A stretch of 64,000 nt of DNA from Gilliamella sp. ESL0441 (GTDB lineage Bacteria; Pseudomonadota; Gammaproteobacteria; Enterobacterales; Orbaceae): contig NZ_CP048264.1 of NCBI RefSeq assembly GCF_019469185.1, forward strand, positions 1,612,001-1,676,000. The letters run 5' to 3'. Position 1 is the stretch's first letter; every line of letters starts with the position of its first letter. Below the pieces are notes generated by a model. It saw only the letters and a program-made list of their open reading frames with translations, was not told where the DNA came from and ran no database searches. Made by a program: the position numbers and the translations under genes. Below are positions 10,733-40,674 of the stretch, one piece after another.

Positions 10733-11923
10733 ATGTATTATAAGTATGTCTTAATGATAGGTCTTTTCGCTTACAGTTCCACTTCTTTTCCTAACCTAAA
10801 TAATCATGACAAAGCCGTTAAAGCAGATAAATTATTAAAAGAAAGTATTGAAGCAAAGAAAACTCAAAATTTTGAACTTGCTTTAACTAAGTTACAGGAA
10901 GCTCATCGGCTATTTCCTACTAACTCTGACATTTTAGTGCAACTTGGTTTTAATTATTATGCCAGACAAGAATTAGAACTAGCAAAACAATCATTTCAAA
11001 ATGCTTTAACCATAGCTCCCAATTATGTTGATGCACAATATGGTCTAGTAAGTGTAATTCTGGCGCAAAATAGTGATACGCCATATGCGGCAGAGCAATT
11101 ACTTGATCAATATTTAAGTCAATCACCAAATAACTCTGAATTATTAAAATTAAAAAAAACGATAAATGAAATTAAAAGTAATATTCATAATTGGACATTA
11201 AATATTTCTGGCACACACAGCCATTTAACAAAATCTTATGCAGATTGGAACGAGGCAGATATCGCATTATCTTACAAATTGTCAAAAAATAGTACTATTA
11301 CAGGTCATTTAGCTCAATCCCATCGGTTTAATATGAATGACCAACGATTTGGCACAACATTTTGGCATACGATGAATGATAGAGCTTATGGCTACTTATC
11401 TGGCTTTGCAGCCTCCTCAAAAAAATTCTTTGCTCGCTATACGGTAGCAAGTGGTATTGATTATATGTTATTTAAACCGACAAATGAATATCTTAATTCT
11501 CTTCACATCACGCTAGATTTAAAGTTTGACCATTATGATGACGGAAATATTAAAAGTATTACACCAGGTATAGAACAGTATTTCTTTAATGATCGATTAT
11601 CGCTTGCAGGTAAGTGGTACAATACTTATGACCAAGACAACAATCATACCAATGGTTTTTTAATTAAGTTATCAGTCATCCCGACTGAGAAAATGCACCT
11701 ATTTCTCGGTTACTCTAATTCTCAAGAAACGTCTGACCGTTCAAATCGTTTTAATCAATCTTTAATCGAGGCGAAAGCGCATTTTGTGGGACTGTCCTAT
11801 GACATTTCCAACCGATTTAGTGTGAATTTTAACTACACAACTGAAGGACGAAAAGACACAAATCGCAATCGCCGATTGTATAACAAAAACACTTTAGGAT
11901 GTGGTATAAAATGGATATATTAA
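10733..11923 (+). CDS. TPR plus YaiO-like outer-membrane beta-barrel (putative polysaccharide exporter)
   Basis: 396 residues. A signal peptide (about 1-19) is followed by three TPR-like helical repeats (about 30-135, e.g. ALTKLQEAHRLFPTN and AKQSFQNALTIAPNYVDAQ). Alternating beta strands from about 152 run to a terminal aromatic signal (GIKWIY), as expected for a barrel inserted by BAM. The plan is periplasmic TPRs plus an outer-membrane pore, as in YaiO-family proteins and in smaller form PgaA. AAGGTGG precedes the ATG. It is the first gene of a four-gene operon whose third gene is a polysaccharide-synthase-type glycosyltransferase, so export of that polymer is the likely role. Confidence 0.75.
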   Translation: MYYKYVLMIGLFAYSSTSFPNLNNHDKAVKADKLLKESIEAKKTQNFELALTKLQEAHRLFPTNSDILVQLGFNYYARQELELAKQSFQNALTIAPNYVDAQYGLVSVILAQNSDTPYAAEQLLDQYLSQSPNNSELLKLKKTINEIKSNIHNWTLNISGTHSHLTKSYADWNEADIALSYKLSKNSTITGHLAQSHRFNMNDQRFGTTFWHTMNDRAYGYLSGFAASSKKFFARYTVASGIDYMLFKPTNEYLNSLHITLDLKFDHYDDGNIKSITPGIEQYFFNDRLSLAGKWYNTYDQDNNHTNGFLIKLSVIPTEKMHLFLGYSNSQETSDRSNRFNQSLIEAKAHFVGLSYDISNRFSVNFNYTTEGRKDTNRNRRLYNKNTLGCGIKWIY

Positions 11924-36054: not shown

Positions 36055-38367
36055 ATGTTATATAATAACAAATCCACTCATCAGCACGCTGATCATCACT
36101 GCCATGATAGCTGCCAAAACATCACACATAATCATGCACATAATTCACTTCATGCCCGTAATATTAATAAAAACCATCAATCCAATCTGGGACGTGAAAA
36201 TCATGATCATATTCAAACGCAAACCAATGATCTTGATCCTCCACCCGATGAACCTGACCAGCAAAGCCCAACTGTCAAATTAACATGGAAAATTCAAGGC
36301 ATGGATTGTGCGCATTGCGCCCAAAAAATTGAAAATGGAATCAAAACGTTACCCGATATCAATCAAATAAAAATAACGTTTTCAACTGGAAAACTCATGG
36401 TATTTGTGCCCAACAAAAATAAAGAAATTATCAAACTCATTGAAGATAAAGTGGTTGAATTAGGTTATACCCCTATTTTTGAATCCTCACCACATCATCA
36501 TGAGCATTCACACAGTTTGGATAAAAAAGCACTACTGCCTTTAGTGACGCTAGGTATCTTAATTGTAATAAGTTATATCATCCTGTTAATCAATCATGAT
36601 ATAGGTAAATATGCCTTCATTGTTACGGCTATTATTGGCATCATTCCAATAGCCAAAGAAGCCATCACATTAACCCGTAGTGGCACTCCTTTTGCCATTG
36701 AAACGCTAATGAGTATTTCGGCTATTGGTGCGCTATTTATCGGTGCCGCAGAAGAAGCCACCATGGTGATTTTTTTGTTTATGATTGGCGAAATGCTTGA
36801 AGGGATTGCCAGCAATAAAGCTAAAAAAGGTATTTCCTCACTGGTTGAATTAATGCCAGAAGAAACCGTGATTGTTGTTGACGGAAATCGAAAAACGGTG
36901 GCAAGTCATAGTCTTAAACCAGACGATATTATCGAAATATCATCAGGCGGTCGATTACCGGCAGATGTGATCTTAATCAGTGAGCAAGCCAGCATTGATG
37001 AAAGCGCACTAACAGGGGAATCGATTCCAGTCAATTATTTATATGGTGATAAAATTTTAGCTGGCTCACTAGTGGTAGATAACACCATTCAATTAAAAGT
37101 TGTCTCAGAAACAGGACAAAACGCTGTTGACCGTATTTTACAACTTATTGAAGATGCTGAAGAACGCAAAGCACCGATAGAGCGATTTATTGATCGATTT
37201 AGTCGCTATTATACCCCTGCTATTGCCCTATTATCGCTATTAGTAATGGTTATTCCGCCTCTATTGATTCAGACTGATTGGTACACATGGATTTATCGTG
37301 GATTAACGTTACTACTAATAGGTTGTCCATGTGCGTTAGTGATTTCAACACCGGCTGTTATTACTTCTGCGTTATCGAGTGCGGCTAAATATGGTGTTTT
37401 AATTAAAGGCGGTGCAGCCCTAGAACATATAGGTTCAATCAAAATGATTGCTTTTGATAAAACCGGAACCCTGACCGAAGGCAAACCTCAAGTTACCGAT
37501 GTTATCAATCGTGATATCACAACCGAACACTTGTTAACTGTTGTTGCTGCGGTGGAAAGTGGATCACATCATCCGTTAGCCAAAGCTATCCTTGACTATG
37601 CTAAACAAAATAAGATTGTTTTTACTGAAGCCAATAATCGTAAAGCGATTGCTGGGGTCGGTATTCAAGGAGATATCAATCAAGAGACTTTTTACGTTGT
37701 AGCCCCGAATAGACTCGACACCCTATCAACCCAATTACCCCAAGAAGATGCACAGCTTATACAACAGCTTGAAACTGAAGGAAAAACGGTTGTCGTTGTA
37801 GTATCTCATCAAAAATTATTGGGTATCATTGCTTTGCAAGATGTACTTCGCCAAGATGCGGTCAGTGCACTCAATCAACTTCATCAATTAGGCTTAAAAA
37901 CCTTGATGCTAACAGGTGATAATGAACGAGCAGCCAAAGCTATTGCCCAACAACTCAATATTGATTACCGAGCGGAACTTTTACCGGCCGATAAATTAAA
38001 TGAAATTGAAAAAATAAGCACCACAACCGCTATTGCCATGGTTGGCGATGGTATTAATGACTCCCCTGCCATGAAAGCCGCTACTGTAGGTATTGCAATG
38101 GGTAGCGGAACAGATGTCGCACTCGAAACAGCCGATGCGGCTTTAACCAAAAATAGTTTATTGAGTTTACCAAAATTGATACGTTTAACACGCTTTGCTA
38201 ACCGTAATATCAAACAGAATATTACAATTGCTTTAGGCATTAAGTTGATATTTTTAATTACCAGCCTATTTGGTATTACAGGACTTTGGCTTGCTGTATT
38301 AGCAGATTCGGGGACAACAGCGATTGTCACAGCCAATGCTTTAAGATTGCTTAAACTTAAAAAATAA
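36055..38367 (+). CDS. zntA: ZntA-type P1B ATPase (Zn/Cd/Pb exporter) with His-rich N-terminus
   Basis: 770 residues. The first 52 residues hold 12 histidines (HADHHCHD, HNHAHN), and a second cluster (PHHHEHSH) follows the metal-binding domain, whose motif is GMDCAHC (82-88). The membrane CPC is at 424-426 and the phosphorylated aspartate is D468 in DKTGTLTE; GDGIND is the hinge motif. CPC plus DCxxC fits zinc/cadmium/lead efflux. The His-rich tail is longer than in E. coli ZntA (732) and probably buffers or senses zinc. No merR/zntR gene adjoins, and I found no convincing ZntR dyad. Confidence 0.93.
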   Translation: MLYNNKSTHQHADHHCHDSCQNITHNHAHNSLHARNINKNHQSNLGRENHDHIQTQTNDLDPPPDEPDQQSPTVKLTWKIQGMDCAHCAQKIENGIKTLPDINQIKITFSTGKLMVFVPNKNKEIIKLIEDKVVELGYTPIFESSPHHHEHSHSLDKKALLPLVTLGILIVISYIILLINHDIGKYAFIVTAIIGIIPIAKEAITLTRSGTPFAIETLMSISAIGALFIGAAEEATMVIFLFMIGEMLEGIASNKAKKGISSLVELMPEETVIVVDGNRKTVASHSLKPDDIIEISSGGRLPADVILISEQASIDESALTGESIPVNYLYGDKILAGSLVVDNTIQLKVVSETGQNAVDRILQLIEDAEERKAPIERFIDRFSRYYTPAIALLSLLVMVIPPLLIQTDWYTWIYRGLTLLLIGCPCALVISTPAVITSALSSAAKYGVLIKGGAALEHIGSIKMIAFDKTGTLTEGKPQVTDVINRDITTEHLLTVVAAVESGSHHPLAKAILDYAKQNKIVFTEANNRKAIAGVGIQGDINQETFYVVAPNRLDTLSTQLPQEDAQLIQQLETEGKTVVVVVSHQKLLGIIALQDVLRQDAVSALNQLHQLGLKTLMLTGDNERAAKAIAQQLNIDYRAELLPADKLNEIEKISTTTAIAMVGDGINDSPAMKAATVGIAMGSGTDVALETADAALTKNSLLSLPKLIRLTRFANRNIKQNITIALGIKLIFLITSLFGITGLWLAVLADSGTTAIVTANALRLLKLKK

Positions 38368-38543: not shown

Positions 38544-39304
38544 CAGTTTATCCCTATGTATATAGGGAACTCTGAGTATATGCTGGATTGCTGGGGTAAA
38601 AAAACGGTTTATCCCTATGTATATAGGGAACTCTGTTGTAGCTCTGTTAACCCCTGCTCAATCCCCGGTTTATCCCTATGTATATAGGGAACTCCTGCGC
38701 CGATCTTGCTTTTCAGCAATCCAAGGCGGTTTATCCCTATGTATATAGGGAACTCCAAAGTTAGATTTACTTTTGTTTTTATTTCGACGGTTTATCCCTA
38801 TGTATATAGGGAACTCGCATTAAGACGGTCTAGCTCAATGGCTTTTAACGGTTTATCCCTATGTATATAGGGAACTCTGAGCCATTAATTGACTGATTAT
38901 CTACACCAGCGGTTTATCCCTATGTATATAGGGAACTCTTGTATTCAATATCATCGCATTCACTTAAAAGCGGTTTATCCCTATGTATATAGGGAACTCT
39001 GTTAGATAATAAACACCATCTGGAATATCCGCGGTTTATCCCTATGTATATAGGGAACTCACGCTCAGTTTCTGGAGACTAGAAAATTTCAACGGTTTAT
39101 CCCTATGTATATAGGGAACTCACGCTGCGCATTAAGACGGTCTAATTCAATAGCGGTTTATCCCTATGTATATAGGGAACTCTAATTTAAAAAATAGCTC
39201 GGGCTCGTTTTTTACGGTTTATCCCTATGTATATAGGGAACTCGGGTGTACATTTCGTCTTGTTTTAATCTAAAACGGTTTATCCCTATGTATATAGGGA
39301 ACTC
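38544..39304 (-). CRISPR. Type I-E CRISPR array, 13 repeats and 12 spacers, no cas genes in the window
   Basis: Thirteen 29-bp repeats start at 38544 and then every 61 bp to 39276, with twelve 32-bp spacers. Read on the minus strand the repeat starts GAGTTCCC, has a CCCTAT/ATAGGG hairpin and ends ATAAACCG, the type I-E crRNA 5' handle. The array is therefore transcribed on the minus strand, with the leader above 39304. The repeat at 38544 has one mismatch (ATAAACTG), as expected at the old, leader-distal end. All other repeats are identical. A TATAAT on the minus strand lies 5 bp before the first repeat (39309-39314). Its relevance is doubtful because I-E leaders usually start further away. 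Confidence 0.97.
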
Positions 39305-39687
39305 CCTAATTATAACCTATTGTTTATTAATTAAAATAGCAAAGTGTAAAATTCTACCAACTTTTTTGTTGTTTTTTTACTCAGTTGGCTTTTAGATATT
39401 TTAAACACATTAACTTATATTAATCAGTTAGTTAATTGAATTTAGCTAGGAGTTTAATGCGCCTATTCTTCTTGTAATTTATTTGTGCACCGACCAATTT
39501 CTAATTACAAGCTCATTTCTCGGTTTTGGGAATGGATTTTGATGAATTGCTGTGAAATATTTTTCCTTTTTGTACTTTGTCACATTCTACTTGTTATTAA
39601 CAGGGTAAAGCCATTAACTCACTTGGTAGCATTTTTATCCAAAAGTGGAAAGTTGATAAACATGATATTTATTGAACTTTATAAGCA
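39305..39687. other. CRISPR leader side and intergenic region up to the variant repeat
   Basis: About 380 bp of AT-rich DNA between the array and birA. On the minus strand the part nearest 39304 should be the leader with promoter and adaptation signals, but I cannot point to an IHF or Cas1-Cas2 site by eye. No cas gene or other gene is supported here. Confidence 0.55.
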
Positions 39688-39716
39688 TTTATTATCCCTG
39701 TGTATACAGGGAACAC
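39688..39716. repeat. Solitary variant of the CRISPR repeat next to birA
   Basis: A 29-bp segment aligns to the array repeat with a match through ATCCCT, TGTATA and AGGGAAC. It differs at the outer four bases, at position 28, and at two stem positions (13 A to G, 20 T to C) that pair with each other. The hairpin becomes CCCTGT/ACAGGG, so pairing is conserved. It sits 384 bp on the leader side of the array and 4 bp after the birA stop. It may be a relic of another I-E array, and it could also serve as the birA terminator stem. Confidence 0.7.
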
Positions 39717-39720
39717 TTTG

Positions 39721-40674
39721 TTACTCATCACTTCGTAAAGAGATTTCGCCACCAATATATGCTTCGATTTTGCCATCTTGTTCAAGCAGTAAAGCACCCT
39801 GATCATTTATACCTTTTGCAATACCTCGAATAACATCATCACCAATAAGTAATTTAACAGGACGATGAATAAAATTATCGAGATGATTCCAATCATCAAT
39901 AAAAAATGCTAATCCGTTTTTTTCAAATTTTTCGAGATTTTCCCGTAATGTTTTTGCAATTTTGGCAACTAATAAATTACGATTGATATTCCCTAAATTA
40001 GCCCATTTTTGATTGACAATATTCGTGTCAGGATTGGTCATGTTCAAATTAACCCCGATACCAATCACAACATGGGCACAATCCCCTGTTTTACCTGCTA
40101 ATTCGACCAAGATACCTGCTAATTTTTGGTCATTAAGATAGAGATCATTAGGCCATTTTACTTTGATATCTTGACCCGATAATTCTCGTAAAGTCTGCGT
40201 AACAACAATACCGACAACTAAACTTAATCCCATTGCTGCTGCAATGCCTTGCTCTAAGCGCCAATACATTGAAAAATAGAGATTGGTACCAAAAGGTGAA
40301 AACCATTGTCGCCCTCGTCTTCCTCGTGCTTTTGACTGAAACTCGGCTATACAGCAATCTCCCGATTTTAAATCGGGTATTTTATCCAGTATATATTGGT
40401 TAGTTGAGTCGATAATCGGTAAAATTTCAACGCGACTATCAGCTTGGTAATACTGATCTATCTTGGATTTATTAAATAAGTCCATCGGTATTTTTAAACT
40501 ATAGCCTTTACCTTGTATGGAGGATAATTCAATTCCCCATTCACGGAGCACTTTAATATATTTGTTTATTCCGGCACGCGTAATACCAAAATCTGATGCT
40601 AGCTCTTCGCCGGAATGAAAATTTCCGTCGGCTAGAATTTCAATTAATTTAAGGGGATTCTGGTAACTGCGCAT
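39721..40674 (-). CDS. birA: BirA, biotin-protein ligase and biotin-operon repressor
   Basis: 317 residues (E. coli 321), the bifunctional form. An N-terminal winged helix (about 1-60, SGEELASDFGITRAGINKYIK) binds DNA. The ligase core has GRRGRQW (118-124), which closes over biotinyl-5'-AMP, then KWPNDLYL and GIGVNLN. It joins biotin to the carrier protein of acetyl-CoA carboxylase and represses bio genes. GGAG precedes the ATG, which lies inside the 3' end of ycaD (26-bp overlap). Confidence 0.96.
   Translation of the reverse strand: MRSYQNPLKLIEILADGNFHSGEELASDFGITRAGINKYIKVLREWGIELSSIQGKGYSLKIPMDLFNKSKIDQYYQADSRVEILPIIDSTNQYILDKIPDLKSGDCCIAEFQSKARGRRGRQWFSPFGTNLYFSMYWRLEQGIAAAMGLSLVVGIVVTQTLRELSGQDIKVKWPNDLYLNDQKLAGILVELAGKTGDCAHVVIGIGVNLNMTNPDTNIVNQKWANLGNINRNLLVAKIAKTLRENLEKFEKNGLAFFIDDWNHLDNFIHRPVKLLIGDDVIRGIAKGINDQGALLLEQDGKIEAYIGGEISLRSDE

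Follow-up and report, generated by a model that had tools for sequence, protein, structure and literature searches.

Spacers 5 and 10 of a type I-E CRISPR array in Gilliamella sp. ESL0441 are best explained, with a probability of about 0.88, as two separate acquisitions from two alleles of the tail tape measure gene of lambda-like temperate phages infecting Gilliamella. That they are independent acquisitions from two phage alleles appears well supported; the donor phages, the activity of the system and any protection are what we infer from the sequences. In this pair, a bee-gut symbiont has kept a clean natural record of having sampled one phage gene repeatedly, in two of its alleles. As the gene and the likely PAM can be named and a third such spacer is present in another strain, it is open to test whether acquisition returns to a PAM site beyond random sampling of AAG sites. 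The finding also leads to Gilliamella phages with CRISPR arrays of their own, which is the more surprising thing to follow.

Organization of the array and its locus

The window analyzed here is a stretch of 64,000 nucleotides of the ESL0441 chromosome (NZ_CP048264.1, positions 1,612,001 to 1,676,000), and the coordinates of its features are listed in Table 1. The repeat, GAGTTCCCTATATACATAGGGATAAACCG on the minus strand, is present in 13 copies, with one mismatch in one copy. The 29-nt palindromic repeats and 32-nt spacers remain in register with a start-to-start spacing of 61 throughout, the arrangement of type I-E arrays. As the conserved leader extends from position 39305 onwards, spacer 10, which stands third among the twelve when counted from that side, was acquired after spacer 5, in agreement with the order proposed in the initial annotation of this DNA. 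The gene for the P-type ATPase is called copA here. A single repeat-like hairpin lies 383 nt upstream of the first repeat of the array and may be a terminator after birA.

There is no cas gene among the ten neighboring ORFs scanned, and the genome has further arrays with related repeats. A type I-E operon at approximately 383.5–389.4 kb codes for Cse1, Cse2, Cas7e, Cas5e, Cas6e, Cas1e and Cas2e, all above the NCBIfam cut-offs, and a Cas3 core match above cut-off is located at 373–374 kb of the same genome. Cse1 and Cse2 form a single 731-aa open frame (G000:C1 ~383.5-385.7 kb; L011:3493-5688); among the Cse2 matches in 20 genomes of the family, the open frame is 732–750 codons long in four and 204–235 codons in 16. 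Two other arrays of this genome (L012:8247-8581 and L013:9853-10186) share both their leader-distal spacer and their degenerate last repeat, which points to duplication of one array.

Table 1. Features of the array locus in the window, with the closest phage matches of individual spacers.
Feature	Coordinates	Strand	Remarks
P-type (heavy-metal) ATPase gene, copA	36055..38367	+	flanks the array
Type I-E CRISPR array	38544..39304	-	13 repeats, 12 spacers; leader-distal repeat degenerate at its end
Spacer 5 (older)	38817..38848	-	tape measure gene target; peptide LKAIELDRLNA; best phage match 27/32
Spacer 6	38878..38909	-	27/32 in phage tail fibre gene, one contig; triplet AAA; strand of tape measure gene
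Spacer 9	39061..39092	-	weak, 25/32, AAG, phage portal gene, opposite strand; second 25/32 match with TAA
Spacer 10 (newer)	39122..39153	-	same target as spacer 5, shifted by 7 nt; peptide (A)IELDRLNAQR
Spacer 11	39183..39214	-	best 27/32, AAG; end of tail assembly chaperone gene
Spacer 12 (newest)	39244..39275	-	phage exonuclease gene, best 28/32, AAG; opposite strand, 18–19 kb away
Leader	39305..39480	-	~95% identity to leader of the wkB308 array at the same locus
Repeat-like hairpin, single	39688..39716	-	directly after birA stop codon; also in wkB308
birA (biotin protein ligase)	39721..40674	-	flanks the array on the leader side

The spacer 5 and spacer 10 pair

The geometry of the pair is confirmed in all the particulars first annotated, namely coordinates, orientation, the offset of 7, identity at 22 of 25 overlapping bases and the common frame AIELDRLNA. 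The three differences are synonymous transitions (GCC/GCT, GAG/GAA and CTA/TTA), and the AAG immediately before the start of spacer 10 corresponds to bases 5–7 of spacer 5 on the crRNA strand. Over the 25 overlapping nt, spacer 5 departs from the spacer-10 allele at three of its positions, 9, 15 and 16; among relatives, its positions 1–4 and the PAM bases differ. The crRNAs have the sequence of the gene's sense strand, and Cascade would accordingly pair with the template strand.

The comparison of 95 distinct spacers, drawn from six ESL0441 stretches and a single stretch of Gilliamella sp. wkB308, comprised 4,465 pairs. A score of 10 or more is reached by just three of these, the combinations of spacer 5, spacer 10 and a particular wkB308 spacer; spacers 5 and 10 score 16, and the highest score in 20 shuffled sets is 9, which excludes a chance origin of their likeness. 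When the set was widened to 247 spacers (30,381 pairs) from stretches with arrays in seven genomes, two more clear near-identical groups appeared, both at offset 0 (31/32 within wkB308, and 27/32 between wkB308 and the genome G013), along with three weaker pairs; five shuffled sets yield a single pair, at 9. The 27/32 pair has amino-acid changes in every frame. Within the ESL0441 genome, the 23-nt core shared by spacers 5 and 10 is found only in these two spacers at up to three mismatches.

No exact protospacer for either spacer is present in any collection searched, including phages, plasmids, IMG/VR and 84,980 species genomes. Spacer 10 is most similar to the wkB308 spacer (29/32), and taken alone has no phage match above chance, with 23/32 in the best phage gene (Limnobaculum) and 22/32 in Gilliamella phages; its assignment to the target follows from its peptide, its overlap with spacer 5 and the wkB308 spacer.

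A third spacer in Gilliamella sp. wkB308

The wkB308 spacer (in NZ_LZGN01000007.1) covers exactly the 32 nt of spacer 10 and differs from it by TTA/CTA, CGT/CGC and CTT/CTC, all synonymous. Comparison of the three spacer alleles across the 25 overlapping nt reveals five variable places, each a synonymous transition; of the single changes possible in this stretch, 25% would be synonymous. The array is at the same chromosomal site, with the order birA, array, an insert of approximately 7 kb, second array and ATPase gene, as in the window locus; the flanking proteins are 95–98% identical to those of the window. The third spacer is in the second of the two arrays. Only spacers 5 and 10 of the twelve in the window resemble any of the 46 spacers of the wkB308 stretch, and no neighboring spacer is common to both arrays, so that the wkB308 spacer is read as an independent acquisition and not as inheritance. 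No spacer-5-like spacer was seen in wkB308, where there is no second match at up to three mismatches over 23 bases.

The repeats of the birA-linked arrays differ between the strains, with TATATACATA in the window array and TGTATACACA in wkB308 (L100:4011-5321); the changes are on both sides of the palindrome, despite leaders that are 95% identical. The ~7 kb insert between the two wkB308 arrays (L100:5509-12482) codes for a Tox-REase-3 domain protein and includes ORFs with DUF596 and DUF4279, a composition reminiscent of toxin-immunity sets.

The target gene

The motif KAIELDRLNAQ, encoded in the same frame, identifies the target as the tail length tape measure protein gene of lambda-like temperate phages. 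A back-translated KAIELDRLNA pattern matches three stretches in IMG/VR, all within tape measure ORFs of approximately 1095 residues (two of the proteins are identical), and the one ORF scanned matches phrog_339 (tail length tape measure protein) with E 4.2e-155. The AIELDRLNAQ pattern, searched in one genome per species across 84,980 species, yields two stretches, the wkB308 spacer and a Limnobaculum ORF whose best protein match is named tape measure protein. Protein searches gave 4 and 159 homologues, of which 124 were retrieved (the 4, and the 120 of the 159 that were listed); the motif is recognizable in all 124, and the exact sequence LKAIELDRLNAQR is in none of them. The NAQR ending of spacer 10 is absent from all 120 listed proteins of the larger search and is found only in the four of the smaller one (Budviciaceae where named), which places the donors in an unsampled subtype. 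In an IMG/VR profile search, 79 new relatives were scanned among the 80 listed of 577 confirmed, and 11 have the motif, none with a better protospacer. Fifteen remoter tape measure loci (L037-L050, L061) have no recognizable site. The doubled composite peptide, used directly as a query, matched nothing in phage records.

The gene is flanked by a tail assembly chaperone gene just upstream (L075) and by minor tail and J genes downstream (L098). All 16 Gilliamella-type loci, which comprise 12 distinct sequences, have the triplet AAG in front of the spacer-10 site, where it stems from the Lys-Ala codons AAA GCN; the corresponding triplet is ATG in Limnobaculum. The spacer-5 site is preceded by GAA in the same 16 loci, by GAG in Limnobaculum and by AAG in none. 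Computed from the 12 distinct sequences, the ratio pN/pS is 0.22 for approximately 390 C-terminal codons and 0.17 for the 13 codons of the motif, and the motif has no special conservation, 41% of 13-codon windows being at least as conserved. A study of bee phages lists tape measure genes among those most common in variable islands, with one under putative diversifying selection (PMC13331135), which counts against special constraint at the site. The initial annotation had traced both spacers to homologous coding regions, read in one frame, in related invaders, and had looked to an AAG at the spacer-10 protospacer and to purifying selection on the gene for support. All three are borne out, the AAG in relatives of the target, and the invader gene can now be named; the contrary outcomes, a target in an unrelated gene, in non-coding sequence or in another frame, did not turn up.

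Other candidate targets were set aside. A 17-nt match to the terminase small subunit gene of Vibrio phage yong1 (E 7) covers KAIELD only and ends there, and plasmid records (26) give short matches only, at E ~6. A looser degenerate pattern, applied to 44 genomes, was too noisy, with matches in 44 of 44 and the reversed controls also widely matched. The ESL0441 genome has a tape measure remnant at 1719.0 kb (26 residues matched, 65%, with one stop); it corresponds to the 3′ end of the gene, outside the targeted part, and was rejected as a self-target.

Other spacers matching the same phages

Several other spacers of the array match the same phage group, as noted in Table 1. The site of spacer 11 is approximately 2.6 kb upstream of the spacer 5 and 10 site, on the same strand. 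In a search against pieces of 12 IMG/VR phage contigs and seven genome stretches around tape measure loci, nine of the 95 spacers match with AAG at up to seven mismatches, and none does so in the reversed set or in three shuffled sets; dropping the PAM condition, 16 of 95 match (reversed 0; shuffled 0, 1 and 1). Of the wider set, 28 of 247 spacers match the phage group at up to six mismatches, or seven with AAG, compared with 0 of 247 when reversed. AAG precedes 16 of the 28 best matches (13 of 25 at up to six mismatches), where ~1.7% is expected from AAG counts; it lies 5′ of the protospacer on the non-target strand, as is characteristic of type I-E. One spacer of G013 matches the phage pieces at 32/32, and the leader-proximal spacer of another ESL0441 array targets the same strand 223 nt from the spacer-12 site.

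Routes to repeated acquisition

Repeated acquisition from two alleles could be brought about as follows. The Lys-Ala codons would fix the AAG PAM at the spacer-10 site, the fixed AAG would let Cas1-Cas2 cut the same 32 nt from each arriving variant, and the two spacers would jointly cover two synonymous variants of the target. It is very improbable that, instead, one ancestral spacer was copied within the array or between strains and then mutated. The location of the wkB308 spacer in an array at the same birA-copA locus speaks for such copying, but all differences are synonymous in the phage gene, and mutation within an array would not respect codons. Spacers 5 and 10 are moreover shifted by 7 nt, the extra sequence of each continues the gene, and the other ten spacers of the window score only 0–1 against the 46 of the wkB308 stretch.

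How the same site came to be sampled again is less clear-cut. Primed adaptation by spacer 5, in which an escape or allelic phage that it matched imperfectly led to Cas3-dependent acquisition of the adjacent spacer 10, is a possibility that we rate somewhat below even. Spacer 10 is on the same strand, 7 nt away and nearer the leader, the known differences fall outside positions 1–8 of spacer 5 over the 25 nt that can be compared, and spacer 11 lies on the same strand 2.6 kb away; in E. coli, priming is reported to yield same-strand spacers, mostly near the priming site and more than 90% with AAG (PMC10011333). Uniform choice among AAG sites would give such a pair within an array with a probability of ~0.006 for six anti-phage spacers and 0.02 for ten, but for 30 such spacers the same model gives 0.15–0.19. 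Among the later anti-phage spacers, 6, 10 and 11 are on the strand of the spacer-5 site, but spacer 12 and the weak match of spacer 9 are on the opposite strand, and the wkB308 genome, which has a spacer for the identical site, yielded no other spacer resembling it. A hot spot of acquisition or selection, at which the 32-nt site is preferred because of its coding-locked PAM or because its spacers last longer, is rather unlikely. It would account for the site having been sampled three times across two species-level genomes, for the two other offset-0 groups among the 247 spacers and for the AAG retained in 16 of 16 loci. However, among ~1700 AAG sites a shared site arises without a hot spot with a probability of 0.05 (10 versus 9 spacers) to 0.5 (25 versus 50), the motif window has merely average conservation, and the 27/32 group has no frame free of amino-acid changes. 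On these uniform-sampling probabilities the record does not call for priming or for a hot spot, though one or the other may contribute. We favor the view that one common phage lineage was sampled repeatedly, with about even odds that this was helped by priming from any of several anti-phage spacers, not necessarily spacer 5. Of the repeat or primed acquisition suggested in the initial annotation, repeat acquisition from a variant stands, and priming by spacer 5 specifically becomes one possibility.

CRISPR arrays carried by the phages

Some of the phages carry arrays themselves. In G036 a 14-repeat type I-E array with a leader (L098:2471-3293) lies between the tape measure gene, followed by one ORF, and the minor tail, tail assembly and J genes. 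One common 6-repeat array with other spacers occupies the same place in two IMG/VR contigs (L152:5726-6059 and L153:7109-7442), and a 9-repeat array (L147:12694-13210) is beside the equivalent tail genes at a contig end; these too are of type I-E and carry leaders. Two 6-repeat arrays with a common leader (L150:2284-2617 and L154:6034-6367), the former beside a Q-like antitermination gene, look like occupants of a second fixed place in the phages. Placement in a phage operon is less firm for L146, L148 and L154 than for the other array loci. Nine of the 40 spacers in seven phage-array loci match the phage pieces, five of them with AAG (reversed, 0 of 40), and one of the nine targets its own contig.

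Single repeats are present in further phage contigs (L062:433-461, on the minus strand; L080:14878-14906; L151:4502-4530 and 10939-10967; L155:2258-2286), and those of L151 are preceded by leader-like sequence. RNA anti-CRISPRs are described as solitary repeat units (PMC10651486), and the single phage repeats are candidates for these or for empty arrays. In the ESL0441 genome, an array ends directly at the decayed 3′ end of a tape measure gene, which is followed by a phrog_1353 ORF and then by another short array (G000:C1 ~1717.9-1719.8 kb; L014:13880-15762); the abutting array may have arrived with a phage. A broader proposal is that the tape measure site is a convergence point through its Lys-Ala-locked PAM, at which different Gilliamella lineages would repeatedly take the same 32 nt from synonymous phage variants, that host and phage arrays record a shared conflict, and that host arrays are partly delivered by phages; we regard this as speculative and unlikely in full.

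Comparison with known systems

No earlier description of this Gilliamella pair was found in the literature searched, which lay mostly outside subscription journals. Naturally overlapping spacer pairs as such are already published, to which Gilliamella adds the synonymous alleles and the third spacer. In Legionella pneumophila Toronto-2005, a type I-C system has two overlapping spacer pairs against LME-1, and the newer overlapping spacer was read as possible natural priming; arrays with overlapping or identical spacers are also mentioned there (Rao et al. 2016, PMC5071653). As far as that account goes, the two cases are alike in that spacers of different age in one array have overlapping targets in one mobile element. 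They differ in that the Legionella element is sequenced and perfectly matches the newer spacers, whereas the Gilliamella target is known through relatives only, and in that the Gilliamella case is of type I-E, shows synonymous differences and includes a further spacer that another strain has for exactly this site.

The AAG PAM, 29-nt repeat, 32-nt spacer and Cas1e/Cas2e are shared with the type I-E system of Escherichia coli, as described in the portions of PMC10011333 and PMC6568314 that deal with these elements. Unlike in E. coli, Gilliamella has its own repeat and leader, Cse1 and Cse2 are a single open reading frame, and the system is known here from sequence. Virus-borne mini-CRISPR arrays are known from archaeal viruses (PMC6858448, PMC11656645), and CRISPR arrays are reported in Clostridioides difficile prophages (PMC6079278). 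The arrays of the Gilliamella phages resemble both, to the extent that those reports describe them, in having host-type repeats and some spacers that match related phages, and depart from both in being type I-E, in having leaders like those of the host and as many as 13 spacers, and in lying within the tail operon behind the tape measure gene.
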